Part shown: one piece after another, positions 39,654 to 45,622 of the stretch
Position numbering within the stretch: position 1 is the stretch's first letter
Layout: every line of letters begins with the position of its first letter
From: Pseudomonadaceae bacterium
GTDB taxonomy: Bacteria > Pseudomonadota > Gammaproteobacteria > Pseudomonadales > Azotimanducaceae
Length of the DNA: 64,000 nucleotides
Reading direction: 5' to 3'
Assembly: GCA_024743435.1 (NCBI GenBank)
Contig: JANSWO010000003.1
Span: forward strand, 1-64,000
The notes under the pieces: model-generated
What the model was told of the DNA's origin: nothing
Seen by the model: only the letters and a program-made list of their open reading frames with translations
Database searches by the model: none
Position numbers and translations under genes: made by a program

Positions 39654-40007
39654 ATGGATTGGTCCGAATATAAGCTGCTCTGCGATAGCCCCGATGTGCT
39701 TTCCCGCTTCCTGCTGGAGATCACTGCATCGATGTTGTCCGACGAGCCTGTTTTGCGGCGCCGGCTGCATGCTCAGTTGACCAGCACGCCCCTGCCAACG
39801 CCTGCGGATCACCACGGCCCGTCACCTGCCGATATGTACGCGGTGGACATCAACGTCGTAGAGGCTCACGCAATTGCGACAATCGTCGGTAAACTGCCCG
39901 ATAGCGCCGGATCAGAGTATGGGCTCACAAGCCTCGCGGGCGTCCGTGCGGCATGGGGTGAATTGGCTGAACACCACGCCTCGGCGCCCGAAGACGAAGG
40001 CAGATAA
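39654..40007 (+). CDS. Conserved hypothetical protein
   Basis: A 117-aa acidic cytoplasmic protein that I cannot assign. It is predicted helical at the N-terminus (WSEYKLLCDSPDVLSRFLLEITA), then a Pro-rich stretch and a second helical part (VVEAHAIATIVGKL). It lies 33 bp upstream of the LEH-like gene on the same strand. A short hairpin (39592-39607) precedes it. The frame and codon use look genuine, but the evidence is modest. Confidence 0.55.
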   Translation: MDWSEYKLLCDSPDVLSRFLLEITASMLSDEPVLRRRLHAQLTSTPLPTPADHHGPSPADMYAVDINVVEAHAIATIVGKLPDSAGSEYGLTSLAGVRAAWGELAEHHASAPEDEGR

Positions 40008-40040: not shown

Positions 40041-40439
40041 ATGAGCGAAGTGGCGGTAGCGGATAATCAACAGGCGGTACTTGATCTGGTATCCGCGTTT
40101 AATCGGATCGATGTGGATGGCGTGATGCGCTGCCTCCACCCGGAAGCCGTGTATCACAACATGCCGGTTGATCCGGTTTCTGGTGAGCGATCGATTCGCG
40201 CCGTCATAGAATCCTTCACCAGCGCAGCCAGTGAGATCAACTGGGAGATGGTGAACGTGTCGATCACCGCTGAGGGTCACGTCATGACAGAGCGTCTGGA
40301 CAGGTTCAAAATCAATAACCGCTGGATAACGTTACCGGTCATGGGCATTTTCGAGGTCACTGACGGGCTGATTACGTGTTGGCGTGACTACTTCGACATG
40401 GAGCAGTTTCAGTCTCAGCTAAAGGCTACGCAGTCGTGA
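40041..40439 (+). CDS. Limonene-1,2-epoxide hydrolase-like (SnoaL-fold) protein
   Basis: A 132-aa protein of the LEH family in the NTF2/SnoaL fold. It has VLDLVSAFNRIDVDGVMRCLHPEAVYHNMPVDPV, RAVIESFTS, and TERLDRFKINNRWITLPVMGIFEV, followed by ITCWRDYFDM. The Asp-Arg-Asp type residues of the LEH active site (D in TERLDRF, R/D in CWRDYFD) appear to be present. An epoxide hydrolase or related hydratase role is likely but the substrate is unknown. It overlaps the downstream biotin carrier gene by GTGA. Confidence 0.8.
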   Translation: MSEVAVADNQQAVLDLVSAFNRIDVDGVMRCLHPEAVYHNMPVDPVSGERSIRAVIESFTSAASEINWEMVNVSITAEGHVMTERLDRFKINNRWITLPVMGIFEVTDGLITCWRDYFDMEQFQSQLKATQS

Positions 40440-40651
40440 TTGATGTTGAGAGCGAGGTTACCGGGCGGGTGTGGCAACTCCATTGCGAGGTTGGTCAGCA
40501 GGTCGCAGAAGACGATGTGCTTATGATTTTGGAATCCATGAAAATGGAGATCCCGGTTCTGGCGCCCGCCGACGGGACGGTCGCTGAGATTCTTGTCGCC
40601 GTTGAAGAGGCGGTAGATGAAGATCAAGTGCTCGCGCGACTTAGTGACTAG
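40436..40651 (+). CDS. Free-standing biotin/lipoyl carrier protein
   Basis: A 71-aa protein that is a complete biotinyl domain by itself. The biotin-accepting lysine lies in ESMKMEIPV (canonical MKM), with hinge glycines VTGRVW and ADGTVAEI at the usual symmetry positions. It can carry carboxybiotin for an acyl-CoA carboxylase or related enzyme. A carboxyltransferase beta-type gene lies 3.4 kb downstream (44069), but no biotin carboxylase is in the window. The GTG start overlaps the stop of the LEH-like gene. Confidence 0.92.
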   Translation: MIDVESEVTGRVWQLHCEVGQQVAEDDVLMILESMKMEIPVLAPADGTVAEILVAVEEAVDEDQVLARLSD

Positions 40652-40689: not shown

Positions 40690-40716
40690 TGTCACAAAAT
40701 AGCTTCCAGCTTCGTC
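40690..40716 (+). promoter_or_regulatory. ECF41-type promoter
   Basis: TGTCACA (40690-40696), a 16-nt spacer, then CGTC (40713-40716). This is exactly the promoter consensus known for ECF41 sigma factors (TGTCACA-N16-CGTC). It stands 33 bp upstream of the ATG of the cytochrome b-like gene, whose operon partner is an ECF41 sigma factor, so autoregulation is strongly suggested. Confidence 0.85.
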
Positions 40717-40749
40717 ATAGAGACATGATCATCGAATCGGAGAGATGTT

Positions 40750-41463
40750 ATGTCCCTTGTTGCCGACGAAATCTCAGCTACTGGTGCACAGCACTTAGCC
40801 TCAAGAGCGCGAACCCACGCGCGAACCCAAGCGCGAATTCAGGCGGGTTGTGGCCTGATCATTGCGCTGTTTCTGGTGCTGCACCTTGTGAATTTCCTGG
40901 CGGCGATCGTCGGGCCTGGGGCGTACGATAGCTTTCAGAGTATCGTCCGGCCCGCGTACCAATACCCGGCCGTGGAGGTGCTGGTGCTCGGAGCCATTGT
41001 GGTGCACCTCATCATTGCCGGTGTTCGACTGGCTCGAGAGTCACGGCGGAATCTGCGAGGCCGGGCCCGCTGGCATCGCTACGCTGGTGTATTCCTGATG
41101 CTGGTAATTGTTGGTCACGTCGCGGCGGTGCGCGGGCCCTCCTGGTTTGCTGATATTTACCCCGGAGCGCAGGGCCTTGCGTTTACGTTGAATGCTTATC
41201 CAGGGTATTTCTATCCGTATTATTTTCTGCTTGCCTGCGCTGGCTTCTACCATGCGCTCCAAGGCGTGAGTGTTGCCTTGCCGCGATTGAATGCGTTGCG
41301 CTGGCGCCTTTCGCAGTCGCAGCTGGTCTTGGCGACAGGCTGCTTTGCCGTGCTTGCGGTACTCTCGCTCGCGGGGCTGGGAGGCTGGCTGTATGAGATC
41401 CCGGATCCGTATGACAACGACGCGGCGCGACTGTTTCAATCGGTTTTTGGAGTCGGTGGGTGA
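40750..41463 (+). CDS. Cytochrome b-like membrane protein (fumarate reductase/SDH superfamily)
   Basis: A 237-aa protein with five predicted helices: GLIIALFLVLHLVNFLAAIV, VEVLVLGAIVVHLIIAGVRL, YAGVFLMLVIVGHVAAVRG, YYFLLACAGFYHALQGVSV and VLATGCFAVLAVLSLAGLGG. Each of the first four contains a His suited to bind haem, the pattern of fumarate-reductase cytochrome b subunits. No iron-sulfur or flavoprotein partner is adjacent. It is coupled to the downstream ECF41 sigma factor by a GTGA overlap and is preceded by an ECF41 promoter. GGAGAG precedes the ATG. Confidence 0.8.
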   Translation: MSLVADEISATGAQHLASRARTHARTQARIQAGCGLIIALFLVLHLVNFLAAIVGPGAYDSFQSIVRPAYQYPAVEVLVLGAIVVHLIIAGVRLARESRRNLRGRARWHRYAGVFLMLVIVGHVAAVRGPSWFADIYPGAQGLAFTLNAYPGYFYPYYFLLACAGFYHALQGVSVALPRLNALRWRLSQSQLVLATGCFAVLAVLSLAGLGGWLYEIPDPYDNDAARLFQSVFGVGG

Positions 41464-42338
41464 GCAGGAGCATAGCCATCCGCGACCTTCGCCGACTGCA
41501 CCACCTGGCGTATCGCATGCTTGGCAGCGTGCAGGACGCAGAGGATGTTGTGCAGGATGCTCAGGTTCGCCTGCTCGCTGTCGAGAGCCAGCCAGCTAAC
41601 CCGGTGGGCTGGCTAGTCAGAGTGGTGACGAACTTGTGCATCGATCGGCTACGCCGCGTCAAGGCAGAACGCGCAGACTATGTCGGACCATGGTTGCCAG
41701 AGCCGTTGCGCAGTGACCGCTTTGGCGCCGGGCCTGCATCGGTACAGCCGGAGGAAGCGGCGGCGCTTGCTGAGGAGTTGTCGACGGCGATGCTCATGAT
41801 GTTGGAAAGGCTGAGCCCGCCCGAGCGTGCTGTGTTCGTGCTTCGTGAAGGCTTCGGATTCAGTTTTTCCGAGTTGGCCGAGATGCTCGCGATTTCGCCC
41901 ACAAGCGCACGCCAACGAATGACGCGGGCGCGCAAAAATCTGGGCGGTGAACCGCGGTACCGCGCTTCAGCTGAAACCCAGACGAATGCTCTCATGAGCT
42001 TGATCGAAGCCGTTGGTGCGGGCGATTCGGATGCGGTTATCAGCCTGCTCGCGAGCGACGCTATTGCCTATACAGATGGTGGCGGCGTAGTTAGCGCGGC
42101 GATCGCGCCGGTGCAAACGGCTCAGAGAATCGCAACGGTGGCCATCCACCTTGGTTACAGACCGATTGCTGATGGTGACTTCGAGGTTCAATTGGTCGAT
42201 GTGAATGCCGCGCCAGCATTGCTTGTTGTCGAGAGAGGCCAATACCACTCGCTCATTTCGGTGGATTGCGACGACACTGGCCTTGTACACCGGCTATACG
42301 TGCACAGAAATCCTAACAAGCTCGCTGCATTGCGGTAG
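41460..42338 (+). CDS. ECF41 (SigJ-type) sigma factor with SnoaL-like C-terminal domain
   Basis: A 292-aa extracytoplasmic-function sigma factor. Sigma region 2 reads LAYRMLGSVQDAEDVVQDA, region 4 has LSPPERAVFVLREGFGFSFSELAEML. The fused C-terminal SnoaL-like domain, which replaces an anti-sigma factor in this group, carries the ECF41 signatures DGGG (in YTDGGGVV) and a close variant of NPDKL (NPNKL) near the end. The usual ECF41 target is a neighbouring carboxymuconolactone decarboxylase, oxidoreductase or epimerase; here the operon partner is a cytochrome b-like membrane protein instead. Confidence 0.93.
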   Translation: MSRSIAIRDLRRLHHLAYRMLGSVQDAEDVVQDAQVRLLAVESQPANPVGWLVRVVTNLCIDRLRRVKAERADYVGPWLPEPLRSDRFGAGPASVQPEEAAALAEELSTAMLMMLERLSPPERAVFVLREGFGFSFSELAEMLAISPTSARQRMTRARKNLGGEPRYRASAETQTNALMSLIEAVGAGDSDAVISLLASDAIAYTDGGGVVSAAIAPVQTAQRIATVAIHLGYRPIADGDFEVQLVDVNAAPALLVVERGQYHSLISVDCDDTGLVHRLYVHRNPNKLAALR

Positions 42339-44068: not shown

Positions 44069-45622
44069 ATGTCTTGGGATCGGGAAGTCAGCGAACTGGC
44101 CGCGCGCCGGCGAGTCGCACGTGAGCAGGGCGGGGCGGAAGGGATCGCCCGGCAACACGGTGCTGGTCGGCTGACCATTCGAGAGCGGATCGACAAGCTG
44201 TTAGATGAGGGTTCCTTTGACGAGCAGGGCAAGGCAACCGCCCTGGCTGACTACGATGATGATGGAACGCTACTGGGTCACGTCCCTGCAAACTATGTCC
44301 TCGGTTTCGGTCGCATCAATAGACGCGACGTTGTCGTAGGGGGCGAGGATTTCACTCTAAAGGGTGGCTCGCCGAACGCAGCCGGGCTTCGGAAGAGCGT
44401 TTATGCGGAACACCTGGCCTGCCAGTACCGATTGCCACTGGTGCGCTTACTCGAAGGCGGTGGTGGGTCGGTCAAGGGCGGCGGTAAAAAGGGCGGTACC
44501 GTGGGTGACCCTGTTTACGCTGAGCCACGCTTTCGGGTGATTGCCGATGCCATGAACCAGGTGCCGATCGCGAGTGCTGCGCTTGGACCGGTGGCGGGAT
44601 TTCCTGCTGGCCGCCTGGTTGCTTCGCACTTTTCGGTTATGGCGCGCGGCAGTTCCCAGGTGATGATCGGTGGCCCTGCGCTGGTGGAACGGGCGTTAGG
44701 AGTGAAGCTTAGTAAAGAAGAGCTCGGGGGCTCTGCCGTACATGCGCGCAGTGGCATCGTTGATAACGTTGCCGAGGATGAACCCGCGGCGCTGGAGCAG
44801 ATTCGGCGTTTTCTCGGCTATCTTCCGCAAAGCGTCTGGCAGAGATCGCCCCGAGTCGCTTGCGATGATCCTGTGGAGCGAATGGAGCCGGAGTTGCTCA
44901 CGGCGGTGCCCAGGGATAGCAACAAGCCATTCGACATGCATGCGATCGTCAATATGATCGTTGATGTGGGCTCGTTTTTTGAGCTCGCACCTGACTACGG
45001 ACCCAGCCAGATTTGTGGGCTGGCGCGTTTGTCCGGGCAATCGGTTCTGGTGCTCGCGAACGACTGTCGACACTACGCGGGGGCCATGACGGCCGAGGCT
45101 GCGCAAAAATACCGGCGTTTCGTGGAGATGGCTGACAGTTTCCACATCCCCGTCGTCAACTTTGTCGATCAACCTGGGTTCATGATAGGCCCGGAATCTG
45201 AACGAGCAGGCACAATCCGTTATGGCATGGCTGCGGTATCGGCGGCGGTCCAGGCAACCGTGCCCTGGGCATCGATTCAAGTGCACAAGGGTTTTGGAGT
45301 GGCGACGGCGGCTCATTTCGGCACCGACGCCTACGTGTTGTCCTGGCCCTCGGTTGAGAGTGGCGCGCTGCCGCTTGAGGGTGGTGTTGCCGTTGCGTTT
45401 CGCCGTGAGATTGCGGCGGCGGCAGACCCTGACAAGAAGCGCGCGGAGATTGAAGAGCGGCTGAGAGCCAACCGATCGCCGTTCGGCAGGGCTGAGTCAT
45501 TTTCCGTTCACGAGATGATAGATCCTCGCGAAACGCGGCCAGTGTTGTGTCAATGGATCGAGCGTATTCAAGGACAATTGGACGGGCTCAATGAGCCTGT
45601 ATCTTGGGGTATGCGGCCTTAG
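44069..45622 (+). CDS. Acyl-CoA carboxylase carboxyltransferase subunit
   Basis: A 517-aa carboxyltransferase of the propionyl/methylcrotonyl-CoA carboxylase beta family. It has ERIDKLLDEGSFDE, RDVVVGGEDFTLKGGS, EGGGGSVKGGG, GPVAGFPAGR, QVMIGGPALV, and the carboxybiotin-binding half with NFVDQPGFMIG and ALPLEGGVAVAF. It transfers CO2 from carboxybiotin to an acyl-CoA. No biotin carboxylase gene is nearby; the free biotin carrier at 40436 may be its partner. ATG 44069 has CGGAGAGA upstream. Its last 4 bp overlap the convergent ada gene. Confidence 0.9.
   Translation: MSWDREVSELAARRRVAREQGGAEGIARQHGAGRLTIRERIDKLLDEGSFDEQGKATALADYDDDGTLLGHVPANYVLGFGRINRRDVVVGGEDFTLKGGSPNAAGLRKSVYAEHLACQYRLPLVRLLEGGGGSVKGGGKKGGTVGDPVYAEPRFRVIADAMNQVPIASAALGPVAGFPAGRLVASHFSVMARGSSQVMIGGPALVERALGVKLSKEELGGSAVHARSGIVDNVAEDEPAALEQIRRFLGYLPQSVWQRSPRVACDDPVERMEPELLTAVPRDSNKPFDMHAIVNMIVDVGSFFELAPDYGPSQICGLARLSGQSVLVLANDCRHYAGAMTAEAAQKYRRFVEMADSFHIPVVNFVDQPGFMIGPESERAGTIRYGMAAVSAAVQATVPWASIQVHKGFGVATAAHFGTDAYVLSWPSVESGALPLEGGVAVAFRREIAAAADPDKKRAEIEERLRANRSPFGRAESFSVHEMIDPRETRPVLCQWIERIQGQLDGLNEPVSWGMRP

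Follow-up and report, generated by a model that had tools for sequence, protein, structure and literature searches.

A probable autoregulated ECF41 sigma factor operon with a cytochrome b-like membrane protein as its partner

Introduction

The subject of this report is a pair of coupled genes in a 64,000-nucleotide stretch of DNA, hereafter the window, from a Pseudomonadaceae bacterium of the Azotimanducaceae (assembly GCA_024743435.1, contig JANSWO010000003.1, positions 1 to 64,000 of the forward strand). The first gene encodes a cytochrome b-like membrane protein and the second a sigma factor that its sequence assigns to ECF41, a group of extracytoplasmic function (ECF) sigma factors; ahead of both lies a match to the ECF41 target promoter. 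The pair is read, with a probability of about 0.7, as a two-gene autoregulated ECF41 operon whose output would be a quinone-linked cytochrome in place of the usual partner, a protein like carboxymuconolactone decarboxylase (CMD). The same order of promoter motif, cytochrome gene and ECF41 gene recurs in other genomes, and this recurrence is the main support for the reading.

According to Wecke et al. (2012, PMC3426412), ECF41 factors have the target promoter TGTCACA-n16-CGTC with a spacer of 16 +/- 1, a partner gene beside the sigma gene, and a C-terminal extension, and the neighbouring gene is shown there to be the target. A partner gene for a CMD, an oxidoreductase or an epimerase (COE) is usual and not obligatory, with 34% of the factors listed as ECF alone and 6% as ungrouped (PMC3426412, Table 4). 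The same study found no reproducible ECF41 phenotype.

Gene Layout and Promoter Motif in the Window

The original prediction placed TGTCACA-N16-CGTC 33 bp ahead of the cytochrome b-like gene, and its coordinates are exact: a pattern search of the window finds TGTCACA-AAATAGCTTCCAGCTT-CGTC at 40690-40716, and the ATG at 40750 follows after 33 nt. The GTGA coupling of the two genes was also described correctly, the open reading frames (ORFs) at 40750-41463 and 41460-42338 overlapping at 41460-41463 (Table 1).

Table 1. Positions of the promoter motif, the two genes and the predicted haem ligands in the window
Feature	Position	Strand	Remark
ECF41-type promoter motif TGTCACA-N16-CGTC	40690..40716	+	Exact sequence match, spacer exactly 16
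Stretch from -10 element to start codon, 33 nt	40717..40749	+	With GGAG ribosome-binding-like sequence
Cytochrome b-like gene, 237 aa	40750..41463	+	Five helices, SdhC/FrdC dihaem type
GTGA overlap	41460..41463	+	Cytochrome stop and sigma start
ECF41 sigma gene, 292 aa, GTG start	41460..42338	+	Sigma2, WLPEP linker, sigma4, SnoaL-like C-terminal extension, DGGGVVS and RNPNKL
Codon His45	40882..40884	+	Predicted axial ligand of distal haem with His123; invariant 18/18
Codon His86	41005..41007	+	Predicted axial ligand of proximal haem with His168; invariant 18/18
Codon His123	41116..41118	+	Predicted axial ligand; invariant 18/18
Codon His168	41251..41253	+	Predicted axial ligand; invariant 18/18

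The motif by itself is at chance level. With the spacer loosened to 14-18, chance would give 0.20 matches in the window, and 18 of 100 window shuffles hold at least one. A whole-genome search with a spacer of 15-17 gives 4 matches against 4 for a reversed control pattern, and YGTCACR-N16-CGTC gives 9 against 8 for the control. The counts of the latter pattern are near chance in two further genomes as well (G448, 18 against 14; G003, 9 against 8). The window site is the sole TGTCACA-N16-CGTC in the 4.15 Mb assembly. The significance of the motif comes from its conservation.

Conservation of Promoter, Cytochrome and Sigma Factor

Loci were gathered with the cytochrome alone as query, using a profile from a four-row alignment; a single-sequence scan of genome contigs with the window cytochrome had found no relative. 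A one-genome-per-species scan returns 17 loci (L057-L073), all from metagenome-assembled Gammaproteobacteria, Pseudomonadales or Proteobacteria. An ECF41 gene is next downstream on the same strand in all 17, that of L058 being cut by the contig end, and [TC]GTCAC[AG]-N16-CGTC stands ahead of the cytochrome gene in every one. The motif counts as significant because both strands of these loci, 190,968 bp in all, hold 17 matches, all lying ahead of the cytochrome gene, with none at other sites. A candidate start codon follows the motif after 27-37 nt in 15 of these 17 relatives; the distance is 71 nt in L062 and 12, 21 or 42 nt in L066.

Within the family of the window genome, the cytochrome is present in 23 of 206 genomes and 12 of 37 genera. 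An ECF41 sequence adjoins it in 22 of the 23, including two broken frames and one gene cut by a contig end. When 42 rows were merged into 25 distinct cytochrome loci, the window included, an adjacent ECF41 gene was found in 24 and [TC]GTCAC[AG]-N16-CGTC before the cytochrome in all 25. The script identified 24 of these motifs, and the last (L094, the same locus as L006), which the script missed because the match begins inside a broken gene, was seen separately. The lack of a conserved association between ECF41 and this membrane protein in other genomes had been named in advance as a ground for abandoning the original prediction; the association survives the comparison, and a locus of another family, L127, adds to it. 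Taken at the level of sequence, these results show that the promoter motif, the cytochrome and the ECF41 gene travel together.

Neighbours at the other loci were compared with one another as ORF clusters, while domains were scanned in the window proteins. When ORFs were compared crudely across 18 neighbourhoods, of which several lie on short contigs, the cytochrome cluster appeared in 15, the sigma cluster likewise in 15, and the next most shared cluster in 6. Such figures bear on the reading in which the two genes lie together simply through old linkage, with the sigma factor acting on other targets and the promoter-like motif there by accident. The chance-level counts within a single genome agree with that reading. 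The presence of the motif in every distinct locus, its placement at one site in the 190,968 bp, the variable outer neighbourhoods, and the same gene order in a second family speak against it, and it is considered very improbable. A chance motif was likewise rejected, as the single-genome counts are chance-like and the conservation across loci is not.

In the genome G039 (L010), a deletion starts midway through the cytochrome gene and ends at about residue 58 of the sigma factor; the promoter-like motif CGTCACA-N16-CGTC is still in place there. Around the window pair lie a small conserved protein (39654-40007), a limonene-epoxide-hydrolase/SnoaL-like protein (40041-40439), a 69-aa biotinyl-carrier-like protein (40442-40651) and an acyl-CoA carboxyltransferase (44072-45622). 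By eye, G003 (L015) keeps the small conserved protein, the SnoaL-like protein and the carboxyltransferase, and part of these surroundings recurs in L063 and L066. This recurrence indicates that the window pair sits in an old carboxylase neighbourhood.

Identity of the Sigma Factor

By its sequence, the window sigma factor belongs to ECF41. Pfam reports Sigma70_r2 (54.9 bits) and Sigma70_r4_2 (52.0 bits), each over its cut-off. The family profile matches SigJ of Mycobacterium tuberculosis (5xe7) over positions 2-269 of 272 with an E-value of 6.5e-61. A structure model of middling confidence (predicted local distance difference test, pLDDT, 74) finds SigJ, SigG1 and NTF2-like folds. The Pfam scan does not name a SnoaL domain in the window sigma protein and gives DUF4440 at an E-value of 0.21. 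The DGGG and NPNKL signatures of the original prediction are borne out by DGGGVVS and RNPNKL in the extension, and WLPEP is found in addition. DGGG and NPDKL are conserved motifs of the ECF41 extension. Three motifs are mentioned for ECF41 in PMC3426412, and the text there does not spell out DGGG or NPDKL. The WLPEP of the window protein lies in the sigma2-sigma4 linker, as in the ECF41 group, for which this motif is a described feature (PMC3426412). The ECF41 target promoter TGTCACA-n16-CGTC is present as a sequence match, and the place of the usual COE neighbour is held by the cytochrome.

The residue after DGGG differs from that of other ECF41 factors. Among 20 cytochrome-linked sigma factors it is V in 11, I, M and E in one each, R in 3 and K in 3, whereas it is K in 9 of 13 others. 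It is possible that this change reflects an altered ligand of the SnoaL-like domain.

Sigma trees, which leave out L058 (contig end), L085 and L094 (broken frames) and L010 (deletion), place 19 of the 20 cytochrome-linked factors on one side together with two orphans, L015 of G003 and L018. The remaining cytochrome-linked factor, L070, falls on the side of the CMD-linked factors.

The Cytochrome b-like Membrane Protein

Both sequence and fold place the membrane protein with the SdhC/FrdC-type b cytochromes, and it is predicted to carry haem. Its description as a fumarate-reductase-type cytochrome agrees with the modelled fold, with profile matches (some of them weak) and with four invariant histidines. 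The family profile finds SdhC of Mycobacterium smegmatis (E 2.7e-8) and FrdC of Wolinella succinogenes (E 4.8e-5). The AlphaFold model has a pLDDT of 92 and resembles six dihaem-type chains (subunit C) of quinol:fumarate reductase (QFR) and succinate:quinone reductase (SQR) with Z 13.2-14.4, the next row being at 7.4. Of five ECF41-linked relatives scanned, three exceed the Pfam cut-off for Sdh_cyt (29.7 bits in L061 and L072, 28.2 in L070), and two, L057 (20.2) and L060 (24.3), fall short of it. All 18 aligned cytochromes have His45, His86, His123 and His168, and His109 is not invariant. The profile position of His168 is aligned with a histidine of W. succinogenes FrdC. The haems are presumably paired as His45/His123 and His86/His168, by homology with QFR.

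Positive charges place the N-terminus and the loops 2-3 and 4-5 in the cytoplasm, so that the C-terminus is predicted to lie outside. The periplasmic half of the membrane region is the most conserved part, with a mean entropy of 1.02 bits and 14 invariant positions among 55. Conservation is lowest in the cytoplasmic loops, at 1.70 bits with 1 invariant position among 32, and the C-terminal tail has 1.63 bits. This distribution suggests that the protein works at a site next to the distal haem and does not offer a surface at which a protein of the cytoplasm would dock.

The matches to subunit C of QFR and SQR would also fit an ordinary succinate dehydrogenase or fumarate reductase anchor that has strayed beside a sigma gene. 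This is very unlikely. No flavoprotein or iron-sulphur subunit gene (SdhA or SdhB) was found among the seven other window proteins scanned for domains, and the genome has two side-by-side Sdh_cyt matches elsewhere, on C14, as an ordinary sdhC-sdhD pair would give. An ordinary complex II anchor was rejected on these two grounds.

A Second Family and Stand-alone Relatives

An order-wide sample of 390 genomes gives 11 cytochrome matches: the window, G039 and nine others (L048-L056). None of these nine has an ECF41 gene within the 1.5 kb flanks or the promoter motif. A phylum-wide sample of 398 genomes gives 10 matches: the window, eight remote ones and L127; one of the eight, L129, is the locus L054 again. 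The eight remote matches show neither ECF41 nor the motif in their 1.5 kb flanks. In L127, from another family of Gammaproteobacteria, TGTCACA-N16-CGTC stands 30 nt before the cytochrome gene, and an ECF41 gene follows.

The cytochrome of L127 groups with the stand-alone clade in the cytochrome tree, and its sigma factor falls on the CMD side of the sigma tree, where its placement is unsure owing to a long branch. From these positions, the link between the cytochrome and ECF41 was probably made at least twice. The cytochrome tree, from which L085, L094, L010 and L052 were left out, supports a single ECF-linked group weakly (76/69); L054 and L129, which are the same locus entered twice, align poorly in it.

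Glutamine replaces the second haem histidine, and the other three histidines are kept, in L048, L049, L050, L051, L053, L055, L056, L127, L133 and L134 of the stand-alone family. The four-histidine pattern of the ECF41-linked cytochromes is common to the anchors L011, L132 and L135, among which L011 was domain-scanned. Ferredoxin and cyclase domains are both present in the relatives L131 and L011. The Pfam scan detects neither domain in the 237-aa window cytochrome.

Plasmid records hold no relative of the window cytochrome. One partial match to the L127 cytochrome, L148, lies on a Bernardetia plasmid beside a Crp/Fnr gene, and ECF41-like sigma genes occur in 108 plasmid records.

Separated Pairs and the Usual Partner

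In G448 (L096), an exact TGTCACA-N16-CGTC stands 34 nt before the likely start of the cytochrome gene, and no sigma gene adjoins it. The ECF41 gene of this genome lies on a different contig, preceded by the same motif and by a gene that resembles the CMD-like partner of L021 in its C-terminal half. A gene for a pyrroloquinoline quinone (PQQ)-dependent dehydrogenase, a possible periplasmic electron donor, follows the detached cytochrome. In G003, where the neighbourhood is similar to that of the window by eye, there is no cytochrome gene; the motif lies immediately upstream of an intact sigma gene, which is nested among the cytochrome-linked sigma factors in the tree.

Among G000-G036, the first 37 genomes of the family, ten show an ECF41 match that spans both halves of the protein, one of them in two pieces, and G004 has a further partial match at a contig end. 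The partner of these ten is the cytochrome in six and a CMD-like protein in two (G008, G025), while two are orphans (G003, G026). Among the related ECF41 loci examined, 13 lack an adjacent cytochrome, and eight of these have a CMD or CMD-like gene beside the sigma gene. The Pfam CMD domain is over its cut-off in L023, L121 and L122, below it in L020, and undetected in L019, L021, L099 and L125, where the partners were called CMD/AhpD-like by mutual similarity or by a DCGPC motif. The order promoter, CMD-like gene, ECF41 gene is seen in L019 and L020, and L021 has the same order with a DoxX-like gene ahead.

The DoxX-like gene of L021 (2888-3463, minus strand; Pfam DoxX_2) encodes a four-helix protein and is another membrane protein in an ECF41 operon; a similar-looking gene is seen by eye in L125. 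In L121 and L122, where the CMD gene follows the ECF41 gene, there is a separate TGTCACA/CGTCACA-N16-CGTC motif for each of the two.

Proposed Mechanism and Its Alternatives

In the proposed operon, the SnoaL-like C-terminal domain fused to the sigma factor would restrain it until a small-molecule or redox signal arrives. The released sigma factor would then direct RNA polymerase to TGTCACA-N16-CGTC and so raise the amounts of both the cytochrome and the sigma factor itself, a positive autoregulation. The cytochrome is envisaged as a stand-alone b-type protein with two haems and the SdhC/FrdC fold, located in the inner membrane with its N-terminus inside and its C-terminus outside. It may exchange electrons with the quinone pool at a periplasmic-side site next to the distal haem (His45/His123), possibly for the relief of redox or reactive-oxygen stress. 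It would take the place that a CMD/AhpD-like enzyme holds in the eight loci mentioned above. The cytochrome is most likely the output, and not a sensor, by analogy with the proven ECF41 operons, in which the neighbouring gene is the target.

Several observations weigh against this operon. The window sigma factor scores under the NCBIfam cut-offs of TIGR02957 (258.8 against 323.25 bits) and NF007214 (251.3 against 271 bits). Both models appear narrower than the ECF41 group, and their cut-offs are not among the defining features of ECF41 in the relevant text of PMC3426412. The window cytochrome reaches 22.6 bits for Sdh_cyt against a cut-off of 25.8, and 25.9 of the 96 bits demanded by TIGR02046 (E 6.4e-6). 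Its topology and the assignment of membrane sides depend on positive-inside counts and homology. The L127 cytochrome has glutamine at the place of His86, which implies that not every case requires two haems. In both genomes of genus g17 that have the cytochrome, L085 (G453) and L094/L006 (G016), the sigma frame is broken at different places, through decay or assembly error. Finally, the near-constant pairing in 24 of 25 loci is also compatible with a sensor and its regulator.

The last point leads to another reading, in which the cytochrome would sense redox state in the membrane for a sigma factor in the cytoplasm, the pair being under positive feedback. The dihaem b protein, stand-alone and related to the quinone-reading anchor of the adenylate cyclase CyaC, would here report the state of the respiratory quinones to ECF41. 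If true, this would give ECF sigma factors a haem or quinone input without an anti-sigma factor and with positive feedback on both genes. The ORF comparison of 18 neighbourhoods found no catalytic partner gene conserved nearby, CyaC-type anchors are among the relatives of the cytochrome, and the four-histidine pattern matches the anchors L011, L132 and L135, not the stand-alone relatives. On the other side, the cytoplasmic loops show the weakest conservation in the protein. In addition, G003 has kept the sigma factor and lacks the cytochrome, and the cytochrome and its promoter stand apart from the sigma gene in G448. Moreover, the kind of partner that was replaced had no effect in the one pair tested: YdfG did not alter the activity of the Bacillus licheniformis factor when tested in Bacillus subtilis (data not shown there; PMC3426412). 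A sensor function is therefore considered rather unlikely, and the autoregulated operon with the cytochrome as output is preferred.

Such an operon would be a self-contained ECF41 switch that is wired to a membrane haem-type protein instead of the usual small soluble enzyme, which suggests a new job for the group. The role of ECF41 is little understood, and a dihaem quinone-type partner points it towards membrane redox or respiratory stress. The cytochrome partner has probably been recruited at least twice and exchanged with the CMD/AhpD-like partner. As a coloured protein, the cytochrome would be a spectroscopically testable ECF41 output. The arrangement was seen here mainly in metagenome-assembled proteobacteria.

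Comparison with Known Systems

Dihaem reductases and CyaC: The window cytochrome shares the five-helix fold and four invariant histidines in matching helices with W. succinogenes FrdC, Desulfovibrio gigas QFR and Chloroflexus aurantiacus SQR. Unlike these subunits, it has an ECF41-type promoter, and no flavoprotein or iron-sulphur gene was found beside it. A dihaem anchor of the same kind acts as a quinone sensor in CyaC (PMC10463352). CyaC-type adenylate cyclases have a related dihaem-B membrane domain with four histidines, whereas the window cytochrome lacks the ferredoxin and cyclase domains and has a separate sigma factor instead.

ECF26: Cytochrome b-like targets are described for the ECF26 factors RpoE1/RpoE3 and SMc01022 of Sinorhizobium meliloti (PMC6180224, Table 1). 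As proposed for the window, these are ECF sigma factors whose target is cytochrome b-like. In contrast, the group and the promoter are different, and RpoE1 has the anti-sigma partner EcfR1. ECF41 and cytochrome b both occur in PMC6180224, where cytochrome b is the target of other sigma factors. A literature search, with the 2021 ECF re-classification and the SigJ structure paper outside its scope, returned no paper joining ECF41 with succinate dehydrogenase, nor one joining sigma factor, SnoaL, cytochrome b and operon.

ECF41: The window operon resembles B. licheniformis ydfG-ecf41 and Rhodobacter sphaeroides RSP_0606-0607 (PMC3426412) and S. meliloti SMb20029-rpoE9 (PMC6180224) in its promoter, partner gene, WLPEP motif, long extension and one apparent target. 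Unlike those operons, its partner is a dihaem-type membrane cytochrome b and not a CMD, oxidoreductase or epimerase. SigJ is said to be linked to peroxide sensitivity, going by the title of a cited paper. An ECF41 factor of Azospirillum brasilense reportedly controls motility and lateral flagella, according to the title of a 2020 paper by Dubey et al. As in the window, that output is outside the CMD, oxidoreductase and epimerase types, and no cytochrome is named in the title. Non-COE outputs of ECF41 are thus not new in themselves.

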